A stretch of DNA of 52,170 nucleotides from a virus: the IMG/VR virus record IMGVR_UViG_3300020433_000009, positions 1 through 52,170 of that record. One strand, given 5' to 3'. Both the position numbers and the translations under genes were made by a program. Each line of letters starts with the position of its first letter. Within the stretch, counting starts at the first letter, position 1. Below are positions 10,774-42,930 of this stretch, in pieces. The notes under the pieces were generated by a model. The model was not told where the DNA came from and ran no database searches. It worked only from the letters and a program-made list of their open reading frames with translations.

Positions 10774-11031
10774 TTAATCCCTAGGCGGTACTACTATATC
10801 ATCAGGAGTGACAACATAATATTCATGACCGTGTGCAACGCAAGTTTGTATAATCTCTCGATCACTTACCTCTACCACTGACATCTCTGGAAAATCTTCA
10901 GCTTCCAGAAGTCCAGCATAGCGTACTGCGTCGTCTTTGTCAAGGAACATGTATACTAATGGTTTATTCTTATCTGTATTAACAGCGTAAGCCCCTTCGT
11001 TTTCTTTACCATGTATTGCTAAAATATACAT
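10774..11031 (-). CDS. DUF3110-family protein
   Basis: An 85-residue protein whose pattern KENEGAYAV, YMFLDKDDAVRYAGLLEAE, DFPEMSVVEVSDREI follows the cyanobacterial DUF3110 family, in which a strand-helix FxDxDDAxRYAxLLExQDFP signature is typical. Function unknown. It sits between gp47 and gp46 with a one-base stop/start overlap with gp47, so it is probably co-expressed with the nuclease subunits. Its family supports a cyanobacterial host. Confidence 0.85.
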   Translation of the reverse strand: MYILAIHGKENEGAYAVNTDKNKPLVYMFLDKDDAVRYAGLLEAEDFPEMSVVEVSDREIIQTCVAHGHEYYVVTPDDIVVPPRD

Positions 11032-12077
11032 TAGACTAACTCCAGTGCTTCTACGTATAAGGATTTGAGAATAGATTTAAGTGCAGGTTTATCAGAATGA
11101 TTTAAGTCATCAACATATCTTTCAAGGATAGTAAGTGTATCTTCTTTTTCAATATCAATCTCTTCATTAAGATCCTGTTCAAATGATGGATCCTCTATAA
11201 CTTTGATCTCATGTACACCTGCAGCATACAATTGACTAATAAAGAATTCAAATTTATCAGGATCAGTTTTCTTCTCTACAATAATCTTTATAAAATTACT
11301 AGTAAAGTCAGCATAATTAAACTTACTACTATTTAACTGATCTTCATTGTAGTAAATCTTAGAATATATCTCATAAGGGTTCGGTATAAACTCCAATTCT
11401 TTAGTTTCAGTATCAAATATATGGAAACCACGTTTACAATTATAGTCATTCCAATAGATCTGATATGGATTACCTAGGTATGTGATGTTTTCTCTGGTGC
11501 TTCTTTGGTGATAGTGACCTGAGAATACTTTCTCAAACTTTCTATAAGGAGAAGTTGCAGCACCATGATCCATGATGTATCCTCTATGTGCTTCAAAACC
11601 ATTGAGTTCTAGATGACCCATTGCAACAGTAGACTTGGTTTTTTCAATAAGATCATAAGTCTCATCATGGTTCTCTGAGTTTATCCAAGGTATGAATAGA
11701 ATAGGTAGTCCTCCTATCTCTACTTCGGTTGCTTTAGAATATATTTCTACATTATCATACTCACCAACTGTAGTCACGAGAGTGTTTACTAAATTAGTAT
11801 CTTTAAAATATGCAGTATGATTTCCCACAAGAGAATGAACTTGCACTCCCATGTTTTTTAGTACATCAAAATAATTATGTGTTGCCCATTGTGCAGCCCA
11901 GATGTCTAAATTTCTACGGTTGTCAAATGTATCTCCTAAATCAAGAACTGTTTTGATGCCACGTTTTTTTAGAGTAGGAAAGAATACATTTCTATAAAAC
12001 TTCTTAAAGAAGTCATGAAATATTCTACTAGATTTTCTTGCACCAAAGTGTTGATCAGTTATTATTGCTACCTTCAC
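11031..12077 (-). CDS. gp47: Recombination endonuclease subunit gp47 (Mre11-like)
   Basis: A 348-residue metallophosphoesterase (T4 gp47 is 339). All Mre11 metal-binding motifs are visible: IITDQHFGAR (D-x-H, residues 5-14), DLGDTFDNRR (GD), LVGNHTAYF (GNH), AMGHLEL, and VFSGHYHQRS (GHxH). It forms the nuclease of the gp46/gp47 complex that processes double-strand breaks and ends. Its start overlaps the aminotransferase stop (ATGA), so it is translated from the same transcript as gp55 and the cassette between them. Confidence 0.96.
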   Translation of the reverse strand: MKVAIITDQHFGARKSSRIFHDFFKKFYRNVFFPTLKKRGIKTVLDLGDTFDNRRNLDIWAAQWATHNYFDVLKNMGVQVHSLVGNHTAYFKDTNLVNTLVTTVGEYDNVEIYSKATEVEIGGLPILFIPWINSENHDETYDLIEKTKSTVAMGHLELNGFEAHRGYIMDHGAATSPYRKFEKVFSGHYHQRSTRENITYLGNPYQIYWNDYNCKRGFHIFDTETKELEFIPNPYEIYSKIYYNEDQLNSSKFNYADFTSNFIKIIVEKKTDPDKFEFFISQLYAAGVHEIKVIEDPSFEQDLNEEIDIEKEDTLTILERYVDDLNHSDKPALKSILKSLYVEALELV

Positions 12078-13216
12078 TTCAGTTGTTGCTCCAAGAAGTA
12101 AAAGTATTCGTCATTAGCATTGATCGGAATGGTATACATTCCTTTGTGTTCACGCTCAATTTCAATTATAGTTCCGAACTGTCCTCTCACATTATAACCT
12201 AAATCCTTGAATAGGTCAACTGCCCTCACTACTATATCCCTATGTTTATCCATTAGGTTTTCATCTTTCAGTATTTTAATGTATGCTAGACAACTTAGGA
12301 TGCCAGGCAAACTGAAACTATATGTAAACCCATGCTCCCAATCAAATTCTCTAGGCAATGCTTCATGTATCTTATCATTGTATAGTGTGATACTCAATGG
12401 GAAGTAACCTCCTGTGATTGCCTTGCCCATAGTAAAGATGTCAGGTGCAACTGGCAACCTCTTCCAACCTACAAATGTACCAGTCTTTCCTCCTCCTGTA
12501 AAAATATCATCTATGATTACTAGAACTCCTCTGTTCTGTATATCGTTTATCTTATCCCAAAACTCTTCCGTATGTGGTCTGATACCATTTGCGTAAGGAC
12601 AAGTTTCAACCACTACACACATAACATCATCCCAGTTATGGTTGTCTACAACAAACTCTATTGGTAATCTCATTATATTTTCACATGGACTCATGGTGTA
12701 AAAAGGATCATTGAATAAACCATCACCCATGCTCTGAGTTAGTAGAGTTGATCCATGGTAACTATCTCTGAATACTACTATCTTATTACGTTGAGGACTT
12801 CCTACCTCTTTTTGATATGCACTAGCAAGTTTAACTGCTCCTTCTACTGCATCACTACCACTTAATGCAAAGATACTTCTATACTTAACTGGGATTTTTC
12901 TACCATCACCACAATCTCTACAGGTAGTAGTCGTTGATGTAATAGCTCTGAGTGTCTTTGCTAGTTTGAATGTGCAGTTGTTTAACTTGAGAGGTTGAGC
13001 ATCAAAGAAGTTCTCACCTATCTCTGGTTTGATGCACATATTATTATGAACATATCTCATGATCTCCATCTCACCATACCCCAATGTATAGCAACCGAAG
13101 TTCAACATAGGGTCTATGTACCTCTTACCATCTAAACTCATCCTACCATATGTCCAACCATACTCTTGGTTGCCCACGTTTTTTTGTTTGCCTGATATTA
13201 ATCCTAGATATTTCAT
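12074..13216 (-). CDS. Class III PLP-dependent aminotransferase
   Basis: A 380-residue fold-type I PLP enzyme. Motifs in order: FALSGSDAVEGAVKLA (about 116-131, phosphate cup), FRDSYHGST (149-157), IIDDIFTGGGKTG (234-246, variant of the DEVxxGxGRTG motif, Asp for the pyridine N) and FTMGKAITGGYFP (261-273) with the Schiff-base Lys265. It is 40-70 residues shorter than most class III members. A small CRDCGDGRK insertion (99-107) could bind metal. The SGSDAVE and GKAITGG motifs resemble BioA-type enzymes, but the substrate cannot be assigned. It overlaps both neighbours by four bases, forming a cassette with two 2OG-oxygenase-like genes. Confidence 0.88.
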   Translation of the reverse strand: MKYLGLISGKQKNVGNQEYGWTYGRMSLDGKRYIDPMLNFGCYTLGYGEMEIMRYVHNNMCIKPEIGENFFDAQPLKLNNCTFKLAKTLRAITSTTTTCRDCGDGRKIPVKYRSIFALSGSDAVEGAVKLASAYQKEVGSPQRNKIVVFRDSYHGSTLLTQSMGDGLFNDPFYTMSPCENIMRLPIEFVVDNHNWDDVMCVVVETCPYANGIRPHTEEFWDKINDIQNRGVLVIIDDIFTGGGKTGTFVGWKRLPVAPDIFTMGKAITGGYFPLSITLYNDKIHEALPREFDWEHGFTYSFSLPGILSCLAYIKILKDENLMDKHRDIVVRAVDLFKDLGYNVRGQFGTIIEIEREHKGMYTIPINANDEYFYFLEQQLK

Positions 13217-13866
13217 TCTCTTATAAAAGGTTGTTGTGGTCCTGTAATGTTTTTCAAAAAGAAATTAAGTGTCAACCTATCAGTTTTACTTCCAAAGGTC
13301 TGAGCTGCATGTTGTGTATTACCATCGAATAGTATCATTCTGTTGTATACATTATTAATTCTAGCACTCTCCTCATACTGTCCATTTACTTTATTAAATG
13401 CATGCTCATATATTTCATCAGGTACATCCTGACCCTTATATAATGCTTCTTTTACATCTGTGTCTACTGCTTCTTGAAAAAAGTATCCATTTTTTATTGT
13501 GTATATTGACGTACCAGTATCTTTCTGTGGATGTTTATTGAGATAGATCAATCCACCATAGAGACATCCACAATCATTATGTACCCACCCTTGGTTCTTG
13601 GGATGATACTGATCCTCATGAAGAGGTTTGATAATCTGGAATGTCATATCCATCTCCCAGTAGTCAGGAATTCTTTCGTAATGCCATTGAAATAATCTTC
13701 TGCATACCCAGTTGAATAAAGGACTATTGAATGTATTAATATTCTGAGTTCTTTTGCCTGGCCACCTACCATCAGTTGTATTAGTATACTTTGCTTCGTA
13801 TGCAAGTTCTACAATTTTGTCTGGATCTGGAAAAAAATTATCTAGAATGGTAACTGGATACATCAT
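13213..13866 (-). CDS. 2OG-Fe(II) oxygenase-like protein (cassette copy 1)
   Basis: A 217-residue protein paralogous to the gene just upstream. It shares the N-terminal pattern YPVTILDNFFPDPDKIVELA. Putative iron ligands are His96 and Asp98 (WVHNDCG) followed by GGLIYLN, and His186 (NTQHAAQTFG), with Arg197 (DRLTLNFF) placed to bind 2-oxoglutarate. This is the double-stranded beta-helix arrangement of Fe/2OG dioxygenases. It has four-base overlaps with both neighbours. Substrate unknown; the adjacent aminotransferase suggests small-molecule or protein-side-chain modification. Confidence 0.78.
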   Translation of the reverse strand: MMYPVTILDNFFPDPDKIVELAYEAKYTNTTDGRWPGKRTQNINTFNSPLFNWVCRRLFQWHYERIPDYWEMDMTFQIIKPLHEDQYHPKNQGWVHNDCGCLYGGLIYLNKHPQKDTGTSIYTIKNGYFFQEAVDTDVKEALYKGQDVPDEIYEHAFNKVNGQYEESARINNVYNRMILFDGNTQHAAQTFGSKTDRLTLNFFLKNITGPQQPFIRE

Positions 13867-14516
13867 ATAGATCTAAGGATTGGTGGTAATTGTCCTGTCA
13901 TTTCTCTACCAAAGAAGTTGAGAGTTATGCGTTCTTGTTTGTGCCCATAAGTTTCAACACCATGGTGAGCATAGGCTGGAAATAATACAAACCTATTGTA
14001 TACATTCTCTATCTTAACAGTCTCTATGTACTGGTCATATACAATATCCCATGCTTTATTATATTCGTCAAGGTCTAGTTCCTCATCCTTGTATAATGTT
14101 TCTTTTTGTTTTAACTCACTAGGAGTCTGTCTAGTAAAACCATACTTGGGTCTGTAGATCGTCGTTCCTGTATGTGGTTCTGGGTTCTTGTTCAAGTAAA
14201 CTATACCACCAAACCACGTGTCAAGATCTTGATGTATCCATCCACGGTTTCTTTTATCCCATTGTTCATCTGCTAGAGGTTTGATGAACTGAAACTGAGT
14301 TTGCATATTATAATACTCAGGTATCTCATCAGAGAAAATTTTGTAGATACGATTACAAAAGTATTCAAACAACCTCTTATTTGAGATGTGCAACATCTTA
14401 GTTCTAGAACCTGGCCAGTTGCCAGGACTATTATAGGTCTTTAGTTTTTTTGCGTTTTCTACTATCTGATCAGGATCTTCAAAGAAGTCATCTATTATAG
14501 TAAGTGGATAGGTCAC
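13863..14516 (-). CDS. 2OG-Fe(II) oxygenase-like protein (cassette copy 2)
   Basis: A 217-residue protein, the same length as its downstream paralogue. N-terminal YPLTIIDDFFEDPDQIVENA. Putative HxD is His95/Asp97 (WIHQDLD), followed by GGIVYLNKNPEPHTGTTIY; distal His184 or His185 (YAHHGVETYG) and Arg196 (ERITLNFF). All catalytic positions are present, so it is probably active. It overlaps the gp55 stop by four bases. The two copies probably arose by tandem duplication and have since diverged widely. Substrate unknown. Confidence 0.8.
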   Translation of the reverse strand: MTYPLTIIDDFFEDPDQIVENAKKLKTYNSPGNWPGSRTKMLHISNKRLFEYFCNRIYKIFSDEIPEYYNMQTQFQFIKPLADEQWDKRNRGWIHQDLDTWFGGIVYLNKNPEPHTGTTIYRPKYGFTRQTPSELKQKETLYKDEELDLDEYNKAWDIVYDQYIETVKIENVYNRFVLFPAYAHHGVETYGHKQERITLNFFGREMTGQLPPILRSI

Positions 14517-14986
14517 TTAATTTTTATTTCCACGTTTTCTTTTATTGTATTATAGTCTGAGTGACCTGTTTTGTCATCCGTATGGAAGACTTGATCGTAT
14601 CCAGACTTAGTTAGTATTTTATTCTTTATCTCTAACTGGCGTTTCTCTTTCTGTATTCTTCTCAGGAAAGCATAGTAAATGATCTGAGTGAAGTATGCAA
14701 ACGGGTTCTTGGATTTTTCTGGGTTGAAGTTTTCTATGTACTGCACACAGTTCTCTATGCCATCACATATCATATCCTCTCGGAACATGTAGTTGACAAA
14801 GTTTGGTTTGTATGATAGGTGTGTAGCAATCTTTAAAAAACATTCACCAATATAATTACTGATTGGTGGTCTTGGTTCATCCGCTTCTTTTGCCTTAGCA
14901 CATTGTGCTTTGAAGATGATAAGTGCTTCCAAGAATTCTTTATTGTTTACATAATGCTCACTCTGTACCCTTTTTCTAACGGCCAT
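14513..14986 (-). CDS. gp55: Late-transcription sigma factor gp55
   Basis: A 157-residue protein (T4 gp55 is 185). PPISNYIGECFLKIATHLSY and FREDMICDGIENCVQYIENF resemble the sigma region 2-like core of T4 gp55, followed by NPFAYFTQIIYYAFLRRIQK (region 2.4-like). It directs host RNA polymerase to late promoters with the TATAAATA element; such elements occur before virion genes in this window. It begins a long overlapping gene chain (2OG, 2OG, aminotransferase, gp47) and has its own promoter at 15007-15035. Confidence 0.95.
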   Translation of the reverse strand: MAVRKRVQSEHYVNNKEFLEALIIFKAQCAKAKEADEPRPPISNYIGECFLKIATHLSYKPNFVNYMFREDMICDGIENCVQYIENFNPEKSKNPFAYFTQIIYYAFLRRIQKEKRQLEIKNKILTKSGYDQVFHTDDKTGHSDYNTIKENVEIKIK

Positions 14987-17921: not shown

Positions 17922-17929
17922 TATTTATC
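17922..17929 (-). promoter_or_regulatory. Late-promoter-like element GATAAATA
   Basis: Reads GATAAATA on the minus strand, 23 bases before the tail-tube-like start. It differs from the T4 late consensus TATAAATA only at the first base and overlaps the TAA stop of the cupin gene. Confidence 0.55.
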
Positions 17930-18530
17930 CTAACCAAAAAACATCAGGATCGCGAATTTTGTCATAGATGTTAAACCTGAAGTCTCTGAAGTCTGGTTTC
18001 TGTGTTTCGTTATGTGCAGCATCTATCCACGTCAACTCAGCATTCTTACCTCTGGTGCTCTGCCCTTCTACATCATCAATGTTATATTCACCAACATAGT
18101 TCTCACCCACTGTACTAGGTTTGACACCGTTCTGCCAGTGCTGTACTGACATGAATATAGATCTACCATCACCCATAAATGCACCATGTATATCATCATG
18201 GTATACCTTGAGTGTAAAAAAATCGGATCGCATCTTACAGATCTTCTCCTGTTCAGGATGACTGTCTATCCAATAACCACCATGACTAAAACTTATCTTA
18301 CCACGTATGTACACTTCATATGAATCAATGTCAGGATGCCTATGCTCAGGTATGATTGCATGTGGCGGCCAGTTCAGGCACTCGACTTGATACTGCCCTT
18401 CTTTATACATAACCTTCCTATGGAAGTTAGGTACACCAAAAAAATTTCTATTCCAACCTTCTGGTTTAATTATATCGCGAGGATTAAACGTAGTCAAATA
18501 CTCATCGACAAACTCTGTGATGGCATCCAT
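17925..18530 (-). CDS. Cupin-domain protein
   Basis: A 201-residue protein. Cupin motif 1 is visible as PEHRHPDIDSYEVYIRGKIS (HxH, then Glu, then Gly), and a second metal-binding His is in DDIHGAFMGDG. This fits a metal-binding single-cupin enzyme such as a small dioxygenase or isomerase; the reaction is unknown. It begins only five bases after the T-run of a terminator hairpin and has no Shine-Dalgarno, so its expression must come by read-through or from a leaderless start. It is not part of the T4 core and looks like an auxiliary gene between gp23 and the uvsY unit. Confidence 0.75.
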   Translation of the reverse strand: MDAITEFVDEYLTTFNPRDIIKPEGWNRNFFGVPNFHRKVMYKEGQYQVECLNWPPHAIIPEHRHPDIDSYEVYIRGKISFSHGGYWIDSHPEQEKICKMRSDFFTLKVYHDDIHGAFMGDGRSIFMSVQHWQNGVKPSTVGENYVGEYNIDDVEGQSTRGKNAELTWIDAAHNETQKPDFRDFRFNIYDKIRDPDVFWLG

Positions 18531-33523: not shown

Positions 33524-36500
33524 TTATACAGGATTAACGTTGAATCTAATTCTTACATAATAAAGAGTATTCGCACTAAGCGTCACAGCATTAGGAAGAG
33601 TGTAAGATAATTTATTTACACTGTTGTCTCTAGACTCATGTACTATATTAGTAAATGTAGCTGCTGGTGAAAACTGCCAGAATGTTGATGTATGTTGGAA
33701 ACCACTCTTCACTTGTGCAGTCAAAGCTGTAACAGTAGGATTAAATGCAGGTGTGATAGTTTGAATATCTGGTTGATCAACAAATGGAGTAGTGAATGTC
33801 GATGCATTTGAGTATGCACTTTGTAAACCATTCTGATCTCTGAACTTAACTTGAACTGAATACTGAGTATCAAATTCAAGAATTCCTACAGGCACTGTGA
33901 GACTAGTTTTGTTTGCACTATCTCCATTAAGATTTATATTATTAGTATCATAGACAGTTACGTTGTCACTAACTCTTCTAATTCTCCAGTAAGAAGAACT
34001 ATGTGTTGAGCCTGCATATTCTTGAACGAATGGAGATGTAGTAATAACTGGTTGTCTTGATAAAGTTTTAGTAGTGTCTGGATCTATGAATGGTGTAACT
34101 GTAGTTGGAGAAGATACGAACTCTGATTCATTAACAGTTAAAGTAGCAGATGTAGATGTTACAGAAGTTGCATTAGTGTTTGATAGAACACAACGGAATT
34201 GTTCTGATGGATTAGTTGGATATGTTGTTGCGGGTGTTGTATATGACGCTGAGTTTGCACCATTAATAGCACTCCAATTTGCTCCACTATCAGTTGAGAT
34301 CTGCCACTGATAAGAAATAACTCCACTTGTAATAGCAGCAGTTACACTGAAACTTGCAGTTTGTCCCTCAATAACAGCAGTGTTTTGAGGTTGTTGACTG
34401 ATAGTGATAACACGTAATACAGTCTGTAATGCAAAACCAGATGTTATAGGTGCAGCTGATCCAACAAGAGATACGATACATTGGAAACGATCGTCATTAT
34501 CATCAGCAAATACTAAAGTTCCAGTTGTATATGAGTCTGTTGTTCCACCTGTACCAGTAGAAACATTTGCATAGTTTGCACCACCATCATCAGATTTTTG
34601 CCACTGGTATGTTGGAGTTCCACTACTTGTTGATGCTGATACAGTGAAGTTACTGACTGAACCTTCATTAGATGTTACATTAGATGGTTGTGCTGTGATA
34701 GCAAATGTCCTTTCTACAGTCAGAGTTACAGCATTTGTATATGCTTTGACAGTTGCACCAACTGCATCTAACTCACAACGATACTGATCATTATGATCAT
34801 CTGCGTATGTTGTGCCAGCAGTTGTATAACTTGAATTTGTTGCACCACCTATGTTTGACCAGTTGACTCCTCCATCATCTGATTTCTGCCATTGGAAACT
34901 TACGTTTGGACTATGATCTGATTGACTTTGAGCATTTTCTGATCCTCCTCCACCGCCAGGCGTTGTCCATGATTCCGTTTCATATGATGAAGATGCAGCA
35001 TTACCACCAATGATTGACATGGTAACTGATCCAGTACAACTAAATGTTGCTGTAGCTGTTTCATTCACAGTTGCATCCTGTGGTTGATTTACAACATTAA
35101 CAGTTACTGTCTCTACCTGTAAGGTAACAGCATTTGATGCTATCTGTGTAGCACCTGTACAAGACAATACACAACGGAATTGATTTGCATCGTAGGATGC
35201 ATCCAATACAGGAGTTACATAAGTTGCTGTAGTTCCACCAGTTCCTGCAGATACATTATTCCAAGAAGCACCATTTGTATTTGATATCTGCCATTGGTAT
35301 GTTATATCGTTAGCATCATTATCTGAAGTATTTGCTACAACATTGAATGTTCTTGTTCCACCAACAGCACCTGTAGTTCCTTGAGGTTGAGTGGTAATAT
35401 TAATTGTTCTAGTTACGAACAATCTAGCAGCAGTTGAGATAACTTCAGATGCACCAGTGCAATTTAATTTAACTCTATAATAATCTCCATAATCTGCATC
35501 ATATGTTGTGGCTCCAGTAGTATAACTTGATGTGGTAGCACTACCTATATTAGTGTATGTTGCACCATCACCATTTTCTGATTTCTCCCATTGGTAGGAT
35601 AATGCTGCTCCATCTGCTACTGATGCAGTTACATTAAATGTACCAGCTGCAGGTGCAATAGGTGTTGCATTGCTTGGTTCAGCACTTATAGTAATCACTC
35701 TGAATACTGTTAGTGTGACAGCATTAGTATAAGCTGATGCCACTGCAGTGCTAGTATCTAACTTACAACGGAACTGATATGAATTTTTTCCATAGTCATC
35801 ATTGACTGTCAATGTATTACTTGTCACGTTAGTATAACCACTACCTTCAGATAGGGCAGACCAGTTAGCACCACTGTCAGTAGATACTTCCCATTCATAT
35901 GTAATGGTAGATCCGTCAGAACTGATAGCTGATATAGGACCAAATGTAGCACTTGTACCAGCACCTGCTTCTATACTTGCGTTACTAGGTTGTCCTGTAA
36001 CTGTAATAAGAACACCAGTTCCTGCAGTCGTAAAACTGAATGCACGAGTATTGTTTGTTATTTGCTCAACTACAGTAAAGTTAAAGGTTGTATCAATATA
36101 ATCTGATGTAACTGTACCACTCAATATACCCGTTGTGCTGTTTAATGAAAGACCTGAAGCACCAAGTGCGTCACCTGTAGTTGTATAAAGTTCGTAGGTC
36201 GGTTCATTAGCAAATGTCAGACCAGATAAACCAAGGTCAATACTAACACTAGCACCATTTGCAAATGGACTTCCAGTTATTGCACCAGAAGCTTGTGCCC
36301 ATGTTACTGTAGTATCAACATAAGGGAAAAATGCTCCTCTCTTTTTAGTTAGAACATCAGTGTTAGCATCATATTTAAAGTCCACTCCACTATCTACTGG
36401 ATAGTATTTTACATTATCATATACACTGGTGCCCTGTGCTTCTTGAGTATCAGTTTGAGATCTTAGTTGAGTAGAGGTAAAGACAACACCATCTGTACTT

Positions 36501-39013
36501 TCATGTGTTATTGCTTCCGAATCAATCAGTGCAAGATAGTTATTTGATCCACCACCAGTGGCACTAGCACTAGCATTACTAGCTGACTGAACGGTAATCG
36601 TATTATTGATTGCATCCTCAGCAGTTATGTTTAACCATCCACCTTGAGATAATCCAGAAATGTCTGTACCACCAAGAACAACACCACCTGAACTAGGATC
36701 AGTTTGAACTGTGATAGTTCCATTCATTGAGTTGTGATTAGAACACTGATAGTAATATGTGCCTGCAGTATTTGGTGTCCATGATACTGTTGCAGTTCCT
36801 GTAGATCCTTGTCCAGTAGCAGCTGGTGTACTTACTTGATTGCCAGTTCCAGTTCCCTGTACACTCTTAAGATAAAATGGATGAGAACCACTGACACCTG
36901 ATAAGTTAAAATTGATAGTGTCTCCAACATATACAGTAACACCTACATTGTTTCCACCTACTCCACCATTTCTATCAGTTCCACTTAGTGTGTAATACGA
37001 AAATGAAGGAGCTGTTGTTGTTATATTGTATGTTACAGCGTTACCACTACCACCTTCTGTTGATCCTGTAGTTCTTAACTGAACCTTTTTACCAACATTA
37101 CCAATGAAGTGACTGCTATCAGATGAGTTAAAGGAGATTTTTATATTCTGACTTCCACTGGTAACCTCGTATGGGTTAGTTGGTAGTTTTCTTTCTTCGA
37201 TACTATTTGTTGGATAGAATTGAGTTACACCCTTTGTTATATCTCCAGTGTTACCAGTTCCCCTGATAAATTGTTTTCCTAGTGATGCAAAGTTATTAGT
37301 TGTTAGAGTATATCCATTCTTTCCAGCCCAACATGCCATGATACCTGCAACTAGAGGACATGAGAATGATGTACCACCAATAGTTGCATAGTTTGCAGTG
37401 CTATTATATGGTGTGTTTGCAGTCCAGTCATACTTAGGAAGACGAATATTTTTACCAGGTGCACAAACAGTAGCACCAGCACCATAGTTAGAAAAGTCTG
37501 CCCATCTATCATTATAGTCTGTAGCACCTACAGAAATCTTTGCTTGATCTACATCTACATTGTTTACACCACCAGTTGTGTTATCAGCATAACCAGCAGT
37601 TCTTGCTCCAACTACAACCTTAGACATCAAAGGTCCTGCAAAATTATCACCAGAGTCTTTAAATCCATTACCTGCAGATCTACAAATCAATATCCTTTGA
37701 GAAGCAGCTATGGTTCCTTCGATATCATCTAATACTTCTTCATCAGTTCCTGTGTCATCACCTGCATCATTTAGTTCAACATATGGATAAGACTGACTTG
37801 GAAGTCCTGAACCTATGGAAGTATTAACAATAGCTGGTCTGGTATTACCTTTATAGTTTGCATTACTACTATCATTATGATCTATGACTGCCTGATATGC
37901 ATTTAATATAGCAGTATATGTACCACTACCTGAAGAGTTCAAGCATTTGAGTGCATATATTTTTGCATTAGATGCAAATCCACAGGTTCTACCTGCAGCT
38001 AAGATAGCACAATAAGTACCGTGATCATTATCATCTTCGTTGTTAGTACCATAATCACCAGAGTAATGTGGTAATTGGTACACTCTATAGTTCTGTTGTT
38101 CGGCAGTTCCGTTTAGATCAGTAACAAAATCTGGATCATACAATTCAGGATGTAGAGCTGCGTTGTTACCTGTTGGTCTACTTGCACCACGAACTCCGCT
38201 ATCTAAGATATAGATATCAACTCCATCACCAGTGGCACCACTATTACTGTACTCACCATTCATATACTGTCTGTCTTGTTTGGTCAGTCTGTCTAAATGC
38301 CAAAAGTCATGTACGTTAAGTGTCCCATATCTGTTAGGAGAAGTATCATATCTTCCCATTCCAGCGTGGTTTAGGCAATAGTAAAATAAAACTGAAGGTG
38401 TAGATGAACCAAATACTACAGTTGTGTTAGCACCTGATTGTCCTGCAACTCCGTTATAGGTTACACCTGTTGAAAATTCTACACCGCCAGTTGTATATGA
38501 TCCGTCAGGTGTAGTAGAAAATCTTATAGGATGGGTTGCATTACTAGGATGTGATTGATCAAAAATATATGTCGCACCTTGTAAGAAACCACTGAAGTAT
38601 GAAGTGACGACAAAAGTAACATTATCACTTGAGAATGAATATACGTTTGATCCACTGCCTTGCCAGTTAGATGCAACTTGAACATATATTGTGTTCGTGC
38701 TTGATGCAGTAATATTTCTTGTATTCGTAGTAGCTTGTGAAACTACCTCCCCACTAGTCTGTACCTCTTCTCCCTGAGCAGACACAGCTCCAGAAGAATA
38801 TGCTAGTTTATCCCAAAACGCTTTCTTAACAACATTAAGTGCATTGAGTTTCTCTAGTAAACCATTCTCATATTGTTCTGGACATTCCAATGAAAATGTC
38901 TTAAAACTTCTATATGCTTTATAATTGGTTAGGAAACCGTATAATTTTAGGATGGCAGCACATGCAGAATCCAAACTATAATTACCAGAAACCCTGATGA
39001 CTACCTTCTTCAT
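33524..39013 (-). CDS. Giant virion-type protein: subtilisin, cupredoxins, Ig and FN3 repeats
   Basis: I start at ATG 39013 (MKKVVIRVSGN), giving about 1,829 residues; a TTG at 39025 is also in frame. Domains: an I9-like propeptide region (1-70); cupredoxin-like domain 1 (about 100-230) with His161, Cys213, His216, Met219; a subtilisin S8 domain (about 255-590) with Asp271 (YILDSGV), His331 (DHGTYC), oxyanion Asn449 (SAGNG) and Ser549 (GGTSFSCP); cupredoxin-like domain 2 (about 660-770) with His710, Cys756, His759, Met762; a variable region; six Ig-like repeats with YQWQ and FRC motifs (about 34120-36010 in DNA); two FN3-like repeats. The protease triad and both type-1 copper sets appear complete. 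It lies upstream of gp13 with a late-promoter element, so a virion or tail-surface role is inferred. Confidence 0.88.
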   Translation of the reverse strand: MKKVVIRVSGNYSLDSACAAILKLYGFLTNYKAYRSFKTFSLECPEQYENGLLEKLNALNVVKKAFWDKLAYSSGAVSAQGEEVQTSGEVVSQATTNTRNITASSTNTIYVQVASNWQGSGSNVYSFSSDNVTFVVTSYFSGFLQGATYIFDQSHPSNATHPIRFSTTPDGSYTTGGVEFSTGVTYNGVAGQSGANTTVVFGSSTPSVLFYYCLNHAGMGRYDTSPNRYGTLNVHDFWHLDRLTKQDRQYMNGEYSNSGATGDGVDIYILDSGVRGASRPTGNNAALHPELYDPDFVTDLNGTAEQQNYRVYQLPHYSGDYGTNNEDDNDHGTYCAILAAGRTCGFASNAKIYALKCLNSSGSGTYTAILNAYQAVIDHNDSSNANYKGNTRPAIVNTSIGSGLPSQSYPYVELNDAGDDTGTDEEVLDDIEGTIAASQRILICRSAGNGFKDSGDNFAGPLMSKVVVGARTAGYADNTTGGVNNVDVDQAKISVGATDYNDRWADFSNYGAGATVCAPGKNIRLPKYDWTANTPYNSTANYATIGGTSFSCPLVAGIMACWAGKNGYTLTTNNFASLGKQFIRGTGNTGDITKGVTQFYPTNSIEERKLPTNPYEVTSGSQNIKISFNSSDSSHFIGNVGKKVQLRTTGSTEGGSGNAVTYNITTTAPSFSYYTLSGTDRNGGVGGNNVGVTVYVGDTINFNLSGVSGSHPFYLKSVQGTGTGNQVSTPAATGQGSTGTATVSWTPNTAGTYYYQCSNHNSMNGTITVQTDPSSGGVVLGGTDISGLSQGGWLNITAEDAINNTITVQSASNASASATGGGSNNYLALIDSEAITHESTDGVVFTSTQLRSQTDTQEAQGTSVYDNVKYYPVDSGVDFKYDANTDVLTKKRGAFFPYVDTTVTWAQASGAITGSPFANGASVSIDLGLSGLTFANEPTYELYTTTGDALGASGLSLNSTTGILSGTVTSDYIDTTFNFTVVEQITNNTRAFSFTTAGTGVLITVTGQPSNASIEAGAGTSATFGPISAISSDGSTITYEWEVSTDSGANWSALSEGSGYTNVTSNTLTVNDDYGKNSYQFRCKLDTSTAVASAYTNAVTLTVFRVITISAEPSNATPIAPAAGTFNVTASVADGAALSYQWEKSENGDGATYTNIGSATTSSYTTGATTYDADYGDYYRVKLNCTGASEVISTAARLFVTRTINITTQPQGTTGAVGGTRTFNVVANTSDNDANDITYQWQISNTNGASWNNVSAGTGGTTATYVTPVLDASYDANQFRCVLSCTGATQIASNAVTLQVETVTVNVVNQPQDATVNETATATFSCTGSVTMSIIGGNAASSSYETESWTTPGGGGGSENAQSQSDHSPNVSFQWQKSDDGGVNWSNIGGATNSSYTTAGTTYADDHNDQYRCELDAVGATVKAYTNAVTLTVERTFAITAQPSNVTSNEGSVSNFTVSASTSSGTPTYQWQKSDDGGANYANVSTGTGGTTDSYTTGTLVFADDNDDRFQCIVSLVGSAAPITSGFALQTVLRVITISQQPQNTAVIEGQTASFSVTAAITSGVISYQWQISTDSGANWSAINGANSASYTTPATTYPTNPSEQFRCVLSNTNATSVTSTSATLTVNESEFVSSPTTVTPFIDPDTTKTLSRQPVITTSPFVQEYAGSTHSSSYWRIRRVSDNVTVYDTNNINLNGDSANKTSLTVPVGILEFDTQYSVQVKFRDQNGLQSAYSNASTFTTPFVDQPDIQTITPAFNPTVTALTAQVKSGFQHTSTFWQFSPAATFTNIVHESRDNSVNKLSYTLPNAVTLSANTLYYVRIRFNVNPV

Positions 39014-39040
39014 CCCATCTCGCAATTAGTCCTTCAGGTT

Positions 39041-39048: not shown

Positions 39049-39388
39049 CCTTTTTATTCATATCTACTTGTTTAAGTAATCTTGCAATTTCTGTCTCGTC
39101 AACAACCTTATCCATTCTTTCTACTGGTTTACAGAACTTTAAATCGTGACTTGCATCAAATACATATTTCTGTCTACAATGAGTTCTATCTCTTTCCACA
39201 ATAATATGATAAGATTTACCATATACATTCTCTGTAAATCCTATTGCTACGATTGCCCTATTCTCATAAAGATCACCAACTTTATAAGGACAAGTCTCTG
39301 CAGTGCCATCAAAAGGAATATAGAACTGTGTAGAATTGACATGTTCTAACTTCCTAGCTTCACTAGATGGTATGTTTTTTCGATGCAT
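39044..39388 (-). CDS. Hypothetical protein
   Basis: A 114-residue protein with beta-strand pattern (RAIVAIGFTENVYGKSYHII, KYVFDASHDLKFCKPVER) and a helical charged C-terminus (DETEIARLLKQVDMNKK). Three Cys and several His are present but not in a known motif. It shares one base with the stop/start of the upstream 2OG-like gene (TAATG). Function unknown. Confidence 0.7.
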   Translation of the reverse strand: MHRKNIPSSEARKLEHVNSTQFYIPFDGTAETCPYKVGDLYENRAIVAIGFTENVYGKSYHIIVERDRTHCRQKYVFDASHDLKFCKPVERMDKVVDETEIARLLKQVDMNKKA

Positions 39389-39981
39389 TACTTTAACTCC
39401 AAGTTACATAGATCGTCTTGTTCACCAAAGGTACCAGAAAGAAATACATTAAATGATATACTATATCTCATTTGATCCAAATCATTTTTAGCAGTCTGAT
39501 GTTTTAGATAACTGGGAAACAATAGTAGGTCTCCTTTATTTGGATTGATAATGCAATCAGTTACATTATAAAAATTTGGTTGAGCTACATCAGGAATAAT
39601 CATCTTTGGTACTGGATCAAAAAACCTGATGGGAGGATAATTTATATCTTGAGGATAATATGCCCCAGATATAAAACTATTAGGATGTGAGTGAGTATGA
39701 ATATATTCATTGGATGCACACCCTGTAGCCCACATAGTACTTATGCGAGGAAATATGTTTTTATATTCAAAAACATTAGCGAATGAATATTTTACTGCTT
39801 CTAGAAACATCCCAGATAATGTCCAGAACCTCTCATCCTGATGCAAATTAGTCTTAGAAATAGAGAAACCATCTCCATCTTCTAAAACTTTTTTAATATC
39901 CTCTTGTACTTTTTGATGATCAATACCAATATCACAGACCACTAGGGTCTGTGGAAACATACTGAATACTGTTTTAATCAC
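39388..39981 (-). CDS. 2OG-Fe(II) oxygenase-like protein 1 of the tail cluster
   Basis: 197 residues from GTG 39981, or 190 from ATG 39960 (MFPQTLVV), which matches the usual FPTP-like start of the family; both remain possible. IHTHSHPNSFISGAYYPQDI carries the proximal His motif and LLLFPSYLKHQTAKND then RYSISFNV carries the distal His and the Arg. The pattern is that of the 2OG-FeII_Oxy_5 family, in which HxHP occurs at the position of the classic HxD. Substrate unknown. The GTG overlaps the stop of the coiled-coil ORF. Confidence 0.72.
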   Translation of the reverse strand: MIKTVFSMFPQTLVVCDIGIDHQKVQEDIKKVLEDGDGFSISKTNLHQDERFWTLSGMFLEAVKYSFANVFEYKNIFPRISTMWATGCASNEYIHTHSHPNSFISGAYYPQDINYPPIRFFDPVPKMIIPDVAQPNFYNVTDCIINPNKGDLLLFPSYLKHQTAKNDLDQMRYSISFNVFLSGTFGEQDDLCNLELK

Positions 39982-40153
39982 CTACTTTAACTTCACCTTC
40001 TTCTTTTTGAGACATAGTTAGTGCTTCTATTGCACCCTCTAATCTCAATACCTGTTCTTTTCTTTGACTGAGTTGTTTTTCAAGTTCAACAATAGTAGCC
40101 TTTTGCTCTACCAATTGACCATTAAACTCTTTGATCATGTCTGGGATTTCCAT
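39974..40153 (-). CDS. Small coiled-coil protein
   Basis: A 59-codon ORF read from the DNA. MEIPDMIKEFNGQLVEQK, then IVELEKQLSQRKEQVLRLEG show a heptad pattern for one long helix, with a charged tail. It lies between two 2OG-like genes and overlaps the next by 8 bases. There is no strong Shine-Dalgarno. It may form a small trimeric or dimeric coiled coil. Confidence 0.65.
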   Translation of the reverse strand: MEIPDMIKEFNGQLVEQKATIVELEKQLSQRKEQVLRLEGAIEALTMSQKEEGEVKVGD

Positions 40154-40177
40154 AGTTTAAAATAATAACTGTTATAT

Positions 40178-40816
40178 TTAGAAGTGCTCTGCACCATCGA
40201 CTATACCATAGTCTAACACAATATTGCCAGAAATGCTAACTCGTGGTATTCCAGAGAACCCCTTGAATGGATATACTACATGGTTTACCCATGCAGGAAA
40301 TAATATTACTTGACCTTCTATACCTTTTTCAACATTGATTAATTTATTAAACATAGAGAATGGATCTGAGAATTCTGTAAATCCATTCTTTACATGTTGT
40401 GGTAGAACGTCAGGTTCTAATTTACATTGATCCTCATGTGTATATGGCACACTCATGTATACAACAAAACTAAACAACCCAGTATGTTGATGTAAAGGTT
40501 GATAAGAATTTGAATACATTTCATTTCTCCAAAGATCCACCAACTTAAATGGTGTCCTAGGTGGAGTGTTCTGTCTGATCTGATGAAATACAGGAGCAGT
40601 TGCACATTCTCTAGCAAAAGCCTCTGATAAACAAATTATATAATCCTCAAACAAAGGTGCTTTACTTATTCCTAGTTTGTATTCGTCTGGGAATACTCCA
40701 ACTAATTTATCTCCATGGTGACCACCATTCTTTAAATTATTCAGTTCTTCAAAAATATCCTCTGGAAGTTGACTGTACATCAAACAAGGATAATCAAAAT
40801 GATAATTTATATTCAT
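40178..40816 (-). CDS. 2OG-Fe(II) oxygenase-like protein 2 of the tail cluster
   Basis: A 212-residue protein. YQPLHQHTGLFSFVVYMSVP holds the proximal HxH motif, and GQVILFPAWVNHVVYPF followed by GIPRVSISGNI holds the distal His and the 2OG-binding Arg. It diverges strongly from its neighbours in the N-terminal half. It overlaps the next upstream gene by four bases. Substrate unknown. Confidence 0.7.
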   Translation of the reverse strand: MNINYHFDYPCLMYSQLPEDIFEELNNLKNGGHHGDKLVGVFPDEYKLGISKAPLFEDYIICLSEAFARECATAPVFHQIRQNTPPRTPFKLVDLWRNEMYSNSYQPLHQHTGLFSFVVYMSVPYTHEDQCKLEPDVLPQHVKNGFTEFSDPFSMFNKLINVEKGIEGQVILFPAWVNHVVYPFKGFSGIPRVSISGNIVLDYGIVDGAEHF

Positions 40817-41526
40817 GTAATCATCTTATAGTTTGGTTTTATAGATTTATCTGGATGCTCATCCCATCCTTCTTTAGTTAGGATGTCCATTGCAATTGTT
40901 ATTCTTTCAAATGGATGATCATGTTTATCTGTCCAATGCACTAAATGGTTTGGAAACATAAAAATTTCACCTGGTTTATTTGCAAACCCCTTAACTACTT
41001 GTTTGTTAAATGGGTTAGAATAATATGTACCAGTTCTATTTGCAGCGATGGTTAGGTGTGCACCTATAAAACTATCTTTATAAGAACTATGCCAATGAGG
41101 TAATATTTGTTCTCCAGATCTCATTACGTTTGCCCAACACTGAGAGTAGTATTGTTCCTCTCTATGGTTGAACCCATCTACTTGTCCGCAACCAATATCC
41201 CACAATCCTTCATCATGCATGTATTGCCCCATGGCTGCACAACCTCTGTTGATTGTATCTCTTAATGTATTGACCCATGGCTCATCCCATTCCCATACAC
41301 TAAACGCACTAAATTTTGCAGTGAGACTATCTCCTCCAAGACCAGTGCCACCATCATTAGTGACATCTTTGAAGTCATGTATTATCTCTTTTTCTCTTCT
41401 TAGAATACTTTCTCCTATTTCTTTACACTCGTCTCTAGTAAATACTGTTTCAGTATAGAAAGGAAAGTTCCAATTAGGTGCAAAAGGAGTTCTAGGAAAC
41501 TCAGATTTCCATTCAATAATAGGCAT
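40813..41526 (-). CDS. 2OG-Fe(II) oxygenase-like protein 3 of the tail cluster
   Basis: A 237-residue protein. ILPHWHSSYKDSFIGAHLTI gives the proximal His pattern and GEIFMFPNHLVHWTDKHDHP with RITIAMDI the distal half. A long N-terminal part (ECKEIGESILRREKEII, KFSAFSVWEWDEPWVNTLRD) is specific to it. It shares one base with the next upstream gene and overlaps the downstream gene by four. Substrate unknown. Confidence 0.66.
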   Translation of the reverse strand: MPIIEWKSEFPRTPFAPNWNFPFYTETVFTRDECKEIGESILRREKEIIHDFKDVTNDGGTGLGGDSLTAKFSAFSVWEWDEPWVNTLRDTINRGCAAMGQYMHDEGLWDIGCGQVDGFNHREEQYYSQCWANVMRSGEQILPHWHSSYKDSFIGAHLTIAANRTGTYYSNPFNKQVVKGFANKPGEIFMFPNHLVHWTDKHDHPFERITIAMDILTKEGWDEHPDKSIKPNYKMIT

Positions 41527-42164
41527 TATTCAGCTTGATATAAATTCCAAGTAGCTAGTTTTGCTTGAGATGATGCTGCATTGCAAGGTCCTATAGGAAT
41601 ACAATTAAAACTAATTGACCATCTCGAAAATTCTTGTACATGGTTCAACGTACCATGCTTCAACCAACTAGGAAATAATAATAACTTTCCAGCTTCAGGT
41701 ATCATCCCCCATTGTTCAGGAGTTTTTTGTGGATCCACACTGTATAGTTTTATCATACCCTCTCGTCTTTTATCTACAGGATCACAGAACATAGTGGGTG
41801 CACCATCAGTCAGATAGAATACACCACTGATATATGACATTGGGTGATGATGTATCTCATGTTTACCTGCCTTGAAACCAGGCGACAGGTTAGCCCACAT
41901 GATACTAATATCTAATTTTTCACATTCATATTCATAATGTGATCTATATTGCTCTACGCAATCCTCAAAGAAATCTGTTATCTCTTTATACCTAGGATCT
42001 TTATGCAAATCATGTCGAGTTTGCCAAACTCTTTCTGGATGTTCGGGTTGTGCTTGATTTACATTGATATAATCTTCTTCTTCCAGATTAGATATAATCT
42101 GTTTAAAATCAAACTCCGCTTTAAACACATGTACAGGTGTCGGAAAGATATTGTATATGTCCAT
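41526..42164 (-). CDS. 2OG-Fe(II) oxygenase-like protein 4 of the tail cluster
   Basis: A 212-residue member of the 2OG-FeII_Oxy_5 type. It starts DIYNIFPTPVHVF, the classic family N-terminus; IMWANLSPGFKAGKHEIHHH then PMSYISGVFYLTD holds the proximal His residues (His105/107), and GKLLLFPSWLKHGT (His170) with RWSISFNC (Arg181) completes the site. The best family match of the cluster. Substrate unknown; phage copies are often near tail-fibre genes. Confidence 0.8.
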   Translation of the reverse strand: MDIYNIFPTPVHVFKAEFDFKQIISNLEEEDYINVNQAQPEHPERVWQTRHDLHKDPRYKEITDFFEDCVEQYRSHYEYECEKLDISIMWANLSPGFKAGKHEIHHHPMSYISGVFYLTDGAPTMFCDPVDKRREGMIKLYSVDPQKTPEQWGMIPEAGKLLLFPSWLKHGTLNHVQEFSRWSISFNCIPIGPCNAASSQAKLATWNLYQAE

Positions 42165-42165
42165 A

Positions 42166-42930
42166 TTAATATGATATAGAAAGTGTCATTCTTGGTGTGT
42201 TAAGATACTTACCTTTTTCCATAAAGGCAGTATGGAAACATGCTCCTTCATACAGATTAAATCTATTGAATTTATGTTCATCTAGATGGTATCTGATATA
42301 TTTAGTGTTCTCCACAATGGGTTGATATACGTCCATATCCATTCTTTGAGGTGTGAAAGCATACCTTGATTTTCTGTACATACATGTACTAGGATGAAAA
42401 CTTTCCTCTCCTGTCTCCTTCAATCTATAGAACGATGTCCCCGTATCACCTTCTATCTCATCATCAAAGTTTAAACATATATTACCTGCAAGAGAAGAGT
42501 CATCACAGTGTGGCCAATTAGATTGTTTGAATACGTTTCTGTCACCAAATATTCTCTGAAAGGAGTAATTAATAAACCTTCCACCATATCCAAATTCTAC
42601 TTGTGCTATCTTTTTAATTGTTTCTTCTAATTCTTTTATCTGAAAAGAAAGATAAGTCTGATAACCAGGATAGAAACCTGCTTTGGCATCCCATGCAGTA
42701 GGTTTCATAGATGGGTTTGGTATAAACTGTTGTGGTATATCCATTAAAAAATCACGTATCTTTTCTGGATACGCGAAAAAATTGTCAATAGACACAATAC
42801 GATTTTTGTGATTACCAACATCGTAAGTGGTTACATTTATACCACTGTTTACTTCAAATATTCTATCGTCAAATACCTTAAGAGGAAGAGTTGATTGCTC
42901 CTGGTCTGGGGACTGATTCATCTTTTTCAC
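42166..42930 (-). CDS. 2OG-Fe(II) oxygenase-like protein 5 of the tail cluster
   Basis: A 254-residue protein of the same subtype as the two cassette genes at 13213-14516: VSIDNFFAYPEKIRDFLM, then WPHCDDSSLAGNICLN with canonical His141/Asp143, GDTGTSFYRLKETG, and ACFHTAF (His233) with RMTLSISY (Arg247). All ligands are present. It overlaps the upstream CxxC gene by 53 bases; the internal Met4 would still leave most of the overlap. Substrate unknown (DUF6445-like by memory). Confidence 0.76.
   Translation of the reverse strand: MKKMNQSPDQEQSTLPLKVFDDRIFEVNSGINVTTYDVGNHKNRIVSIDNFFAYPEKIRDFLMDIPQQFIPNPSMKPTAWDAKAGFYPGYQTYLSFQIKELEETIKKIAQVEFGYGGRFINYSFQRIFGDRNVFKQSNWPHCDDSSLAGNICLNFDDEIEGDTGTSFYRLKETGEESFHPSTCMYRKSRYAFTPQRMDMDVYQPIVENTKYIRYHLDEHKFNRFNLYEGACFHTAFMEKGKYLNTPRMTLSISY

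Follow-up and report, generated by a model that had tools for sequence, protein, structure and literature searches.

Each of the enzyme families treated here is known, and so is the presence of an oxygenase gene beside the late sigma factor gene gp55 in cyanophages, where genome annotations call it 'hypothetical' or 'minor coat protein'. In P-HM1, P-HM2, MED4-213 (T4-GC 323) and S-RIM4 this place is held by an oxygenase of the DUF6445 type with coupling by 4-bp overlaps. Two oxygenases are found only in S-RIM4, and none of these loci contains an aminotransferase. The locus analysed here is located on a 52-kb IMG/VR phage contig (IMGVR_UViG_3300020433_000009; its entire 52,170 nt are called the window below). 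It harbours two such oxygenase genes at the same place, OGa and OGb, followed by a gene for a class III, pyridoxal phosphate (PLP)-dependent aminotransferase (AT). What is new is that AT belongs to a subfamily which, as far as tested by sequence comparison, occurs only in phages and which is paired with an amidinotransferase in relatives. In our estimation, the chances are about even that the genes in the window are a reduced version of a phage module of oxygenase, aminotransferase and amidinotransferase, by which an acceptor would be oxidised and then aminated.

With the class III family (BioA, ArgD/OAT, GabT, PatA, omega-transaminases) AT shares the fold and the PLP machinery. However, it is at most ~31% identical to the known class III aminotransferases, its C-terminal small domain is ~50 residues shorter, and it lacks the arginines for binding of substrate carboxylates. 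OGa and OGb have the HxD...H...R motif and the predicted beta-helix fold in common with the prolyl-4-hydroxylase (P4H)-like enzymes OGFOD1, PHD2, P. putida P4H and PBCV-1 vCPH, from which they differ by an identity of 10-18% and by their Pfam assignment to DUF6445. The logic of oxidation, transamination and amidination is known for streptidine, and the module in the relatives of AT likewise clusters an oxygenase, an aminotransferase and an amidinotransferase. Unlike in the streptidine case, the module is phage-borne, its aminotransferase is of class III, and 2-oxoglutarate (2OG) oxygenases are present instead of a cyclitol dehydrogenase; unlike the streptidine, HsvA, StrB1, SxtG and AGAT systems, the window is without an amidinotransferase. 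Finally, the daptides are a precedent for a class III PLP aminotransferase acting on ribosomal peptides (PMC10036551). The hidden Markov model of this enzyme (NF041821) matches AT at a similar level (88 bits), but this is far below its cut-off of 450, and neither a precursor of a ribosomally synthesized and post-translationally modified peptide nor partner enzymes were seen.

The original prediction described three accessory genes in a chain between gp55 and gp47, each overlapping the next by four bases. We could confirm the open reading frames (ORFs) and all four junctions (gp55/OGa GTGA, OGa/OGb ATGA, OGb/AT ATGA and AT/gp47 GTGA), we agree that the genes are accessory to T4, and the naming of gp55 and gp47 is borne out by their PHROG matches. 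Below, OG designates the oxygenase gene beside gp55 in general, and loci with two oxygenases and AT are called class A, those with one oxygenase and AT class B. In minus-strand order, as a single overlapping chain, and with two features inside it, the locus comprises:

14513..14986, minus strand: gp55, late sigma factor, heading the chain (phrog_234, E 1.2e-68), GTGA overlap with OGa
13863..14516, minus strand: OGa, DUF6445 / P4H-like 2OG-Fe(II) oxygenase, 217 aa, GTG start (PF20043, 4e-11; phrog_1644, 8e-38)
13213..13866, minus strand: OGb, second DUF6445 / P4H-like 2OG-Fe(II) oxygenase, 217 aa, ATG start (PF20043, 1.2e-12)
12074..13216, minus strand: AT, class III PLP aminotransferase-fold enzyme, 380 aa, ATG start (PF00202, E 3.6e-42)
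11031..12077, minus strand: gp47, SbcD-like recombination nuclease at which the chain ends downstream (phrog_100, 4e-114)
12074..12077, minus strand: insertion point of AT, i.e. the AT/gp47 GTGA overlap, which is OG/gp47 ATGA in relatives without AT
12884..12931, minus strand: insert of ~16-17 residues specific to class A ATs (alignments of AT relatives)

The genes gp23, uvsY, uvsW, gp55, gp47, gp46 and others place the window among Eurybiavirus-like cyanophages, and this is supported by gp47, which is ~79% identical to that of the Prochlorococcus phage P-HM2. With respect to the proposed single chain with the late sigma gene, the overlaps speak for translational coupling. A scan for promoters and terminators revealed sites no more frequently than in shuffled sequences, and so it is the gene overlap from which co-transcription with gp55 would follow. 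Purifying selection on AT and the recurrence of the same order in many contigs argue that the gene order is not due to chance.

AT passes the cut-off of PF00202 (Aminotran_3) with 144.9 bits (cut-off 30.5) and contains SGSDA (residues 119-123), SYHGS (152-156), Glu204, Asp236, Lys265 and Thr298. Its alignment with E. coli BioA, ArgD, GabT, PatA and HemL and with 23 class III enzymes from genomes revealed the full catalytic set, namely the Schiff-base Lys265, the PLP-N1 Asp236, the GSDA phosphate loop and the phosphate-cup Thr298, in agreement with the complete class III site around Lys265 originally proposed. The lysine, the aspartate and GSDA are invariant in 16 phage relatives of AT, and Thr298 is replaced by Ser in the most distant group of them (class D). 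For relatives at 64-93% identity, the dN/dS ratio (nonsynonymous to synonymous substitution rates) was ~0.17 between AT and its nearest counterpart in class A, and 0.13-0.22 in comparisons with class B. By sequence, AT is thus an intact class III PLP protein under purifying selection; a degraded pseudogene, named earlier as an alternative, is ruled out by dN/dS and the intact sites. At about residues 96-111 AT harbours an insert, TTTTCRDCGDGRKIPV, with a CxxC motif, which exists in class A only and is absent from classes B, C and D.

The arginines R391 of BioA, R413 of OAT and R445 of GABA-AT are known to bind the substrate carboxylate in class III; their positions were mapped onto AT by alignment, not by structure. 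In AT, the HGR arginine of the ArgD type is replaced (HGS), the arginine of the 'lRxxPPL' motif has given way to a hydrophobic residue (Met, Phe or Leu across the relatives), and the gate position is without Glu. The class D relatives have a longer small domain, yet their 'lRxxPPL' arginine is also replaced. Since the arginines clamping substrate carboxylates in known class III enzymes are missing, AT is, judged by its sequence, not an enzyme of the ArgD, OAT or GABA (gamma-aminobutyric acid) type. Among the possible products listed previously, those from amino-acid substrates of the ornithine, acetylornithine or GABA type are therefore disfavoured. AT also scores below every curated class III subfamily cut-off: the highest match was to bioA (126 bits, cut-off 405), and the argD model gave 114 bits (cut-off 410).

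By profile search, members of the same AT subfamily (50-57% identical) were detected in T4-like contigs that are distantly related: their terminase, UvsX and UvsW share ~30-35% identity with those of P-HM2 or HTVC008M. Class C comprises the cassettes 2OG(208)-178-AT-2OG(183)-amidinotransferase (C1) and 2OG-2OG-2OG-AT-amidinotransferase (C2). In the class D lineage AT is 33-36% identical, the AT and amidinotransferase genes are convergent, and the cluster also contains a tryptophan halogenase, an Asp/Asn hydroxylase, an SDR-like protein and other 2OG proteins. The closest PDB matches of the amidinotransferase are HsvA (7.8e-27), AGAT, StrB1 and SxtG, and its catalytic residues H215 and C341 are invariant in the relatives. 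HsvA is a polyamine amidinotransferase according to a title cited in PMC12833800. When the search was started from the amidinotransferase, AT was present within 628 nt at all 30 loci with room, i.e. with 700 bp or more to either side. Amidinotransferase-like stretches in the virus of the single amplified genome AG-345-D19 are a partial match with no AT alongside. Separate occurrence of the genes in relatives, named earlier as evidence against the prediction, holds for OG, which usually occurs without AT, but not for AT, which had a 2OG gene nearby wherever it was seen (classes A, B, C1, C2 and D). The idea of a small pathway is strengthened by the relatives in which AT adjoins an amidinotransferase and 2OG oxygenases. 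Among the loci with AT, OGb is found only in the subclade of the window (class A). Measured against the module of oxygenase, AT and amidinotransferase, the window has the subfamily AT and not an adjacent amidinotransferase.

As predicted, the 2OG sites of both oxygenases are complete (H95-x-D97, H185 and R196 in OGa; H96-x-D98, H186 and R197 in OGb), and the HxD...H...R residues are invariant across 15 oxygenase sequences. Both oxygenases pass the cut-off of DUF6445 (PF20043; scores of 48.7 and 43.7 bits, cut-off 24) and match the 2OG-FeII_Oxy families weakly, and are assigned by Pfam to DUF6445 and to no P4H family. The AlphaFold model of OGb (pLDDT 72) is prolyl-4-hydroxylase-like with a predicted double-stranded beta-helix. 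Its closest solved folds are OGFOD1, PHD2 and PBCV-1 vCPH (VIA Z 12.7-13.1; root mean square deviation 2.7-3.7 Å over 145-162 residues, at the 10-18% identity mentioned above). By motif and predicted fold, OGa and OGb are thus members of the 2OG-Fe(II) oxygenase superfamily.

We propose that one or both P4H-like oxygenases would hydroxylate or oxidise an acceptor, and that the resulting carbonyl, directly or after the action of a dehydrogenase, would be aminated by AT. In the relatives the new amine would then obtain an amidino group from arginine, while in the lineage of the window the modification probably ends at the amine, or the last step takes place elsewhere. Since gp55 is followed by these genes in one translated chain, we expect this step to coincide with the synthesis of the late sigma factor, at the onset of the production of virion parts. 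In favour of this are the intact and conserved catalytic residues, the purifying selection, the overlaps, the 2OG neighbours and the amidinotransferase linkage in relatives; the oxidation, amination and amidination are activities predicted from sequence and context. A free omega-amino acid of the ornithine or GABA type is improbable as the acceptor, which may be bound to a protein or another large molecule; this is favoured by the absence of carboxylate clamps in AT together with the P4H-like partner oxygenases. A peptidyl acceptor specifically has a far less than even chance.

Several observations weigh against such a module. Neither the window nor three other class A or B contigs with AT nor the 129-kb class B contig G001 yielded an amidinotransferase, and there was none in contigs without AT, in P-HM1 or in P-HM2; for the A/B lineage this covers the sequenced parts, and the remaining genome may still hold one. 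The 30 amidinotransferase loci are not independent and represent about three architectures. Dozens of loci carry OG beside gp55 without AT, meaning that OG also has its own function. The window contains at least seven 2OG-oxygenase genes and, because such genes are abundant in these phages, the adjacency of OG and AT says little by itself. Further, the P4H-like fold predicted for OGb neither shows what the substrate is nor proves that it is a peptide.

The history of the gp55-gp47 junction bears on this question. In the set of loci retrieved from IMG/VR and from isolates, where overlapping copies were counted as well, gp55-OG-gp47 occurred 45 times, gp55-OG-AT-gp47 26 times and gp55-OG-OG-AT-gp47 10 times. 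The first arrangement is that of the cultured phages P-HM1, P-HM2, MED4-213, S-H25 and S-RS29; also without AT are S-8S55, with one small gene ahead of OG, and S-RIM4, with gp55-OG-OG-gp47. In the gp47 tree all loci with AT fall within one fully supported clade of 22 rows, which they share with six loci lacking it. Class A is nested inside class B in the AT tree (95/91), which indicates that AT came first and OGb later. In the OG tree, OGa of class A is on a long branch, and OGb stands apart, grouped weakly with oxygenases of Synechococcus phages. The exact empty site OG-ATGA-gp47 exists in P-HM2, L106, L159 and L165, all without AT, and in L105, L108, L110, L167 and L168 the OG/gp47 junction holds other small genes. 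Judged by these sequences, the oxygenase beside gp55 is old, and a single Eurybiavirus-like clade has received AT precisely at the ATGA junction of OG and gp47. Of the originally suggested three-gene insert, the AT part therefore stands, while insertion of all three genes as a block is ruled out by the empty sites and the trees. At one locus (L014, 6265-6624) an endonuclease VII/HNH-like gene lies between AT and gp47.

The same junction could be an insertion hotspot with independent neighbours, where AT is one passenger of several and shares no pathway with the oxygenases. This would suit the common occurrence of gp55-OG-gp47 without AT, the other small ORFs or the HNH/endonuclease VII gene at the same junction, and the frequency of 2OG genes in the window. 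It does not suit the three further, differently built architectures in which the AT subfamily, 2OG genes and the amidinotransferase are again joined: with ~20% of junctions flanked by 2OG genes per lineage (a rough window count), ~1% would be expected for three lineages. We regard the hotspot as unlikely, albeit to be taken seriously.

Clearly unlikely is a function of AT as a PLP-dependent lyase which, like PbfA, would act on a hydroxylated amine produced by a 2OG oxygenase and split off ammonia or water. The missing carboxylate clamp and the hydroxylase partners agree with it, and a class D relative matches best the NCBIfam model of PbfA, an ammonia-lyase of the same fold family (143 bits vs 136 for bioA). 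However, this is far below the curated PbfA cut-off of 525, AT of the window scores highest with bioA and reaches only 86 bits with PbfA, and the amidinotransferase partner suits an amine product.

Class III aminotransferases often use glutamate, which would fit a role of AT in the nitrogen/2OG balance: it would deaminate glutamate and regenerate 2OG for the oxygenases or for NtcA signalling, with the acceptor being incidental. Cyanophage infection has been suggested to have 2OG supply as one of its themes (PMC3037559). On the other hand, AT lacks the carboxylate-binding arginines, its tight pairing with the amidinotransferase would be left unexplained, and it is seldom found, in contrast to the nearly universal 2OG oxygenases. 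We consider this role very unlikely. Least probable is glycan tailoring, in which AT would supply a phage-modified surface glycan with an amino, then guanidino, sugar or cyclitol following the logic of streptidine since, despite GT25, GT8-like and NAD-epimerase genes on a class C contig and StrB1 among the amidinotransferase kin, these glycan genes are ~15-28 kb away from the AT cassette, no glycosyltransferase stands beside AT in classes A and B, and sugar aminotransferases mostly come from another family.

This AT was absent from 50,697 phage records, in which the best matches had ~31% identity and were mostly bacterial contamination or transduced genes, and a pattern-based scan of GTDB gave at most 30% identity. 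A host-island origin, a check of which was suggested with the original prediction, found no support: at E 1e-45 the subfamily profile, which matches ordinary class III enzymes at ~1e-25 to 1e-30, had no hit in 386 cyanobacterial and 385 alphaproteobacterial genomes, which are limited samples, and a host-derived AT was rejected on this basis. A defence system was rejected as well (no PADLOC match), and no RNA element was found with Rfam. In the open-licence literature on cyanophages we found no description of AT or of its linkage with the amidinotransferase; 2OG oxygenases in cyanophages are discussed by Sullivan et al. (2010, PMC3037559), where an aminotransferase is not mentioned.

Marine T4-like phages carry many 2OG oxygenases, and the partner set described here restricts the possible chemistry to carbonyl, amine and guanidine, which makes mass spectrometry of virions and infected cells a feasible test. 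Sister phages with and without AT, with an exact empty site, offer a clean natural comparison. AT belongs to a branch of class III that was found in phages only and is devoid of the common carboxylate clamps; it should thus reveal a new substrate class. It is tempting to speculate, although we hold it to be rather unlikely, that T4-like ocean phages oxidise, aminate and, in the relatives, guanidinylate a side chain or terminus of a virion protein or a macromolecule such as DNA. If true, this would be a modification resembling arginine, of a kind that is not known in viruses, and the cyanophages of the window would hold the amine-forming form.

Some further observations concern the cassettes of the relatives. 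The 178-aa class C protein is modelled as an Ig-like beta-sandwich (pLDDT 84) with no informative structural match. In class C, a porphobilinogen deaminase gene (hemC, 3.2e-59; L018, 2833-3699) lies ~1-2 kb upstream of the AT cassette, and in class D the tryptophan halogenase gene (2.5e-93; L208, 7217-8728, minus strand) immediately precedes AT on the same strand. In L044 (7077-7340) and L045, AT is followed by a chimeric 87-aa ORF, in which a 2OG-like start is fused to a second copy of the C-terminal small domain of AT (E 4.4e-10), perhaps due to recombination inside the cassette.

Elsewhere in the window, a 201-aa cupin-like protein, for which Pfam gave no match, is encoded between gp23 and gp3 (17925-18530, minus strand). 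Its gene is present in every class A or B locus with AT which covers that place, and also in L117, L166 and L167, which lack AT; thus, it was rejected as a partner of AT and is a clade marker at best. Five more 2OG-oxygenase genes, four matching 2OG-FeII_Oxy_5 (one just below the cut-off) and one matching DUF6445, are clustered among structural and tail-fibre genes at 39388-42930 (minus strand). An 1833-aa structural protein (33524-39025, minus strand) has an apparent subtilisin-type Asp/His/Ser protease domain with the motifs LDSG, DHGTYCA and GTSFSCPLVAG, as read by eye.

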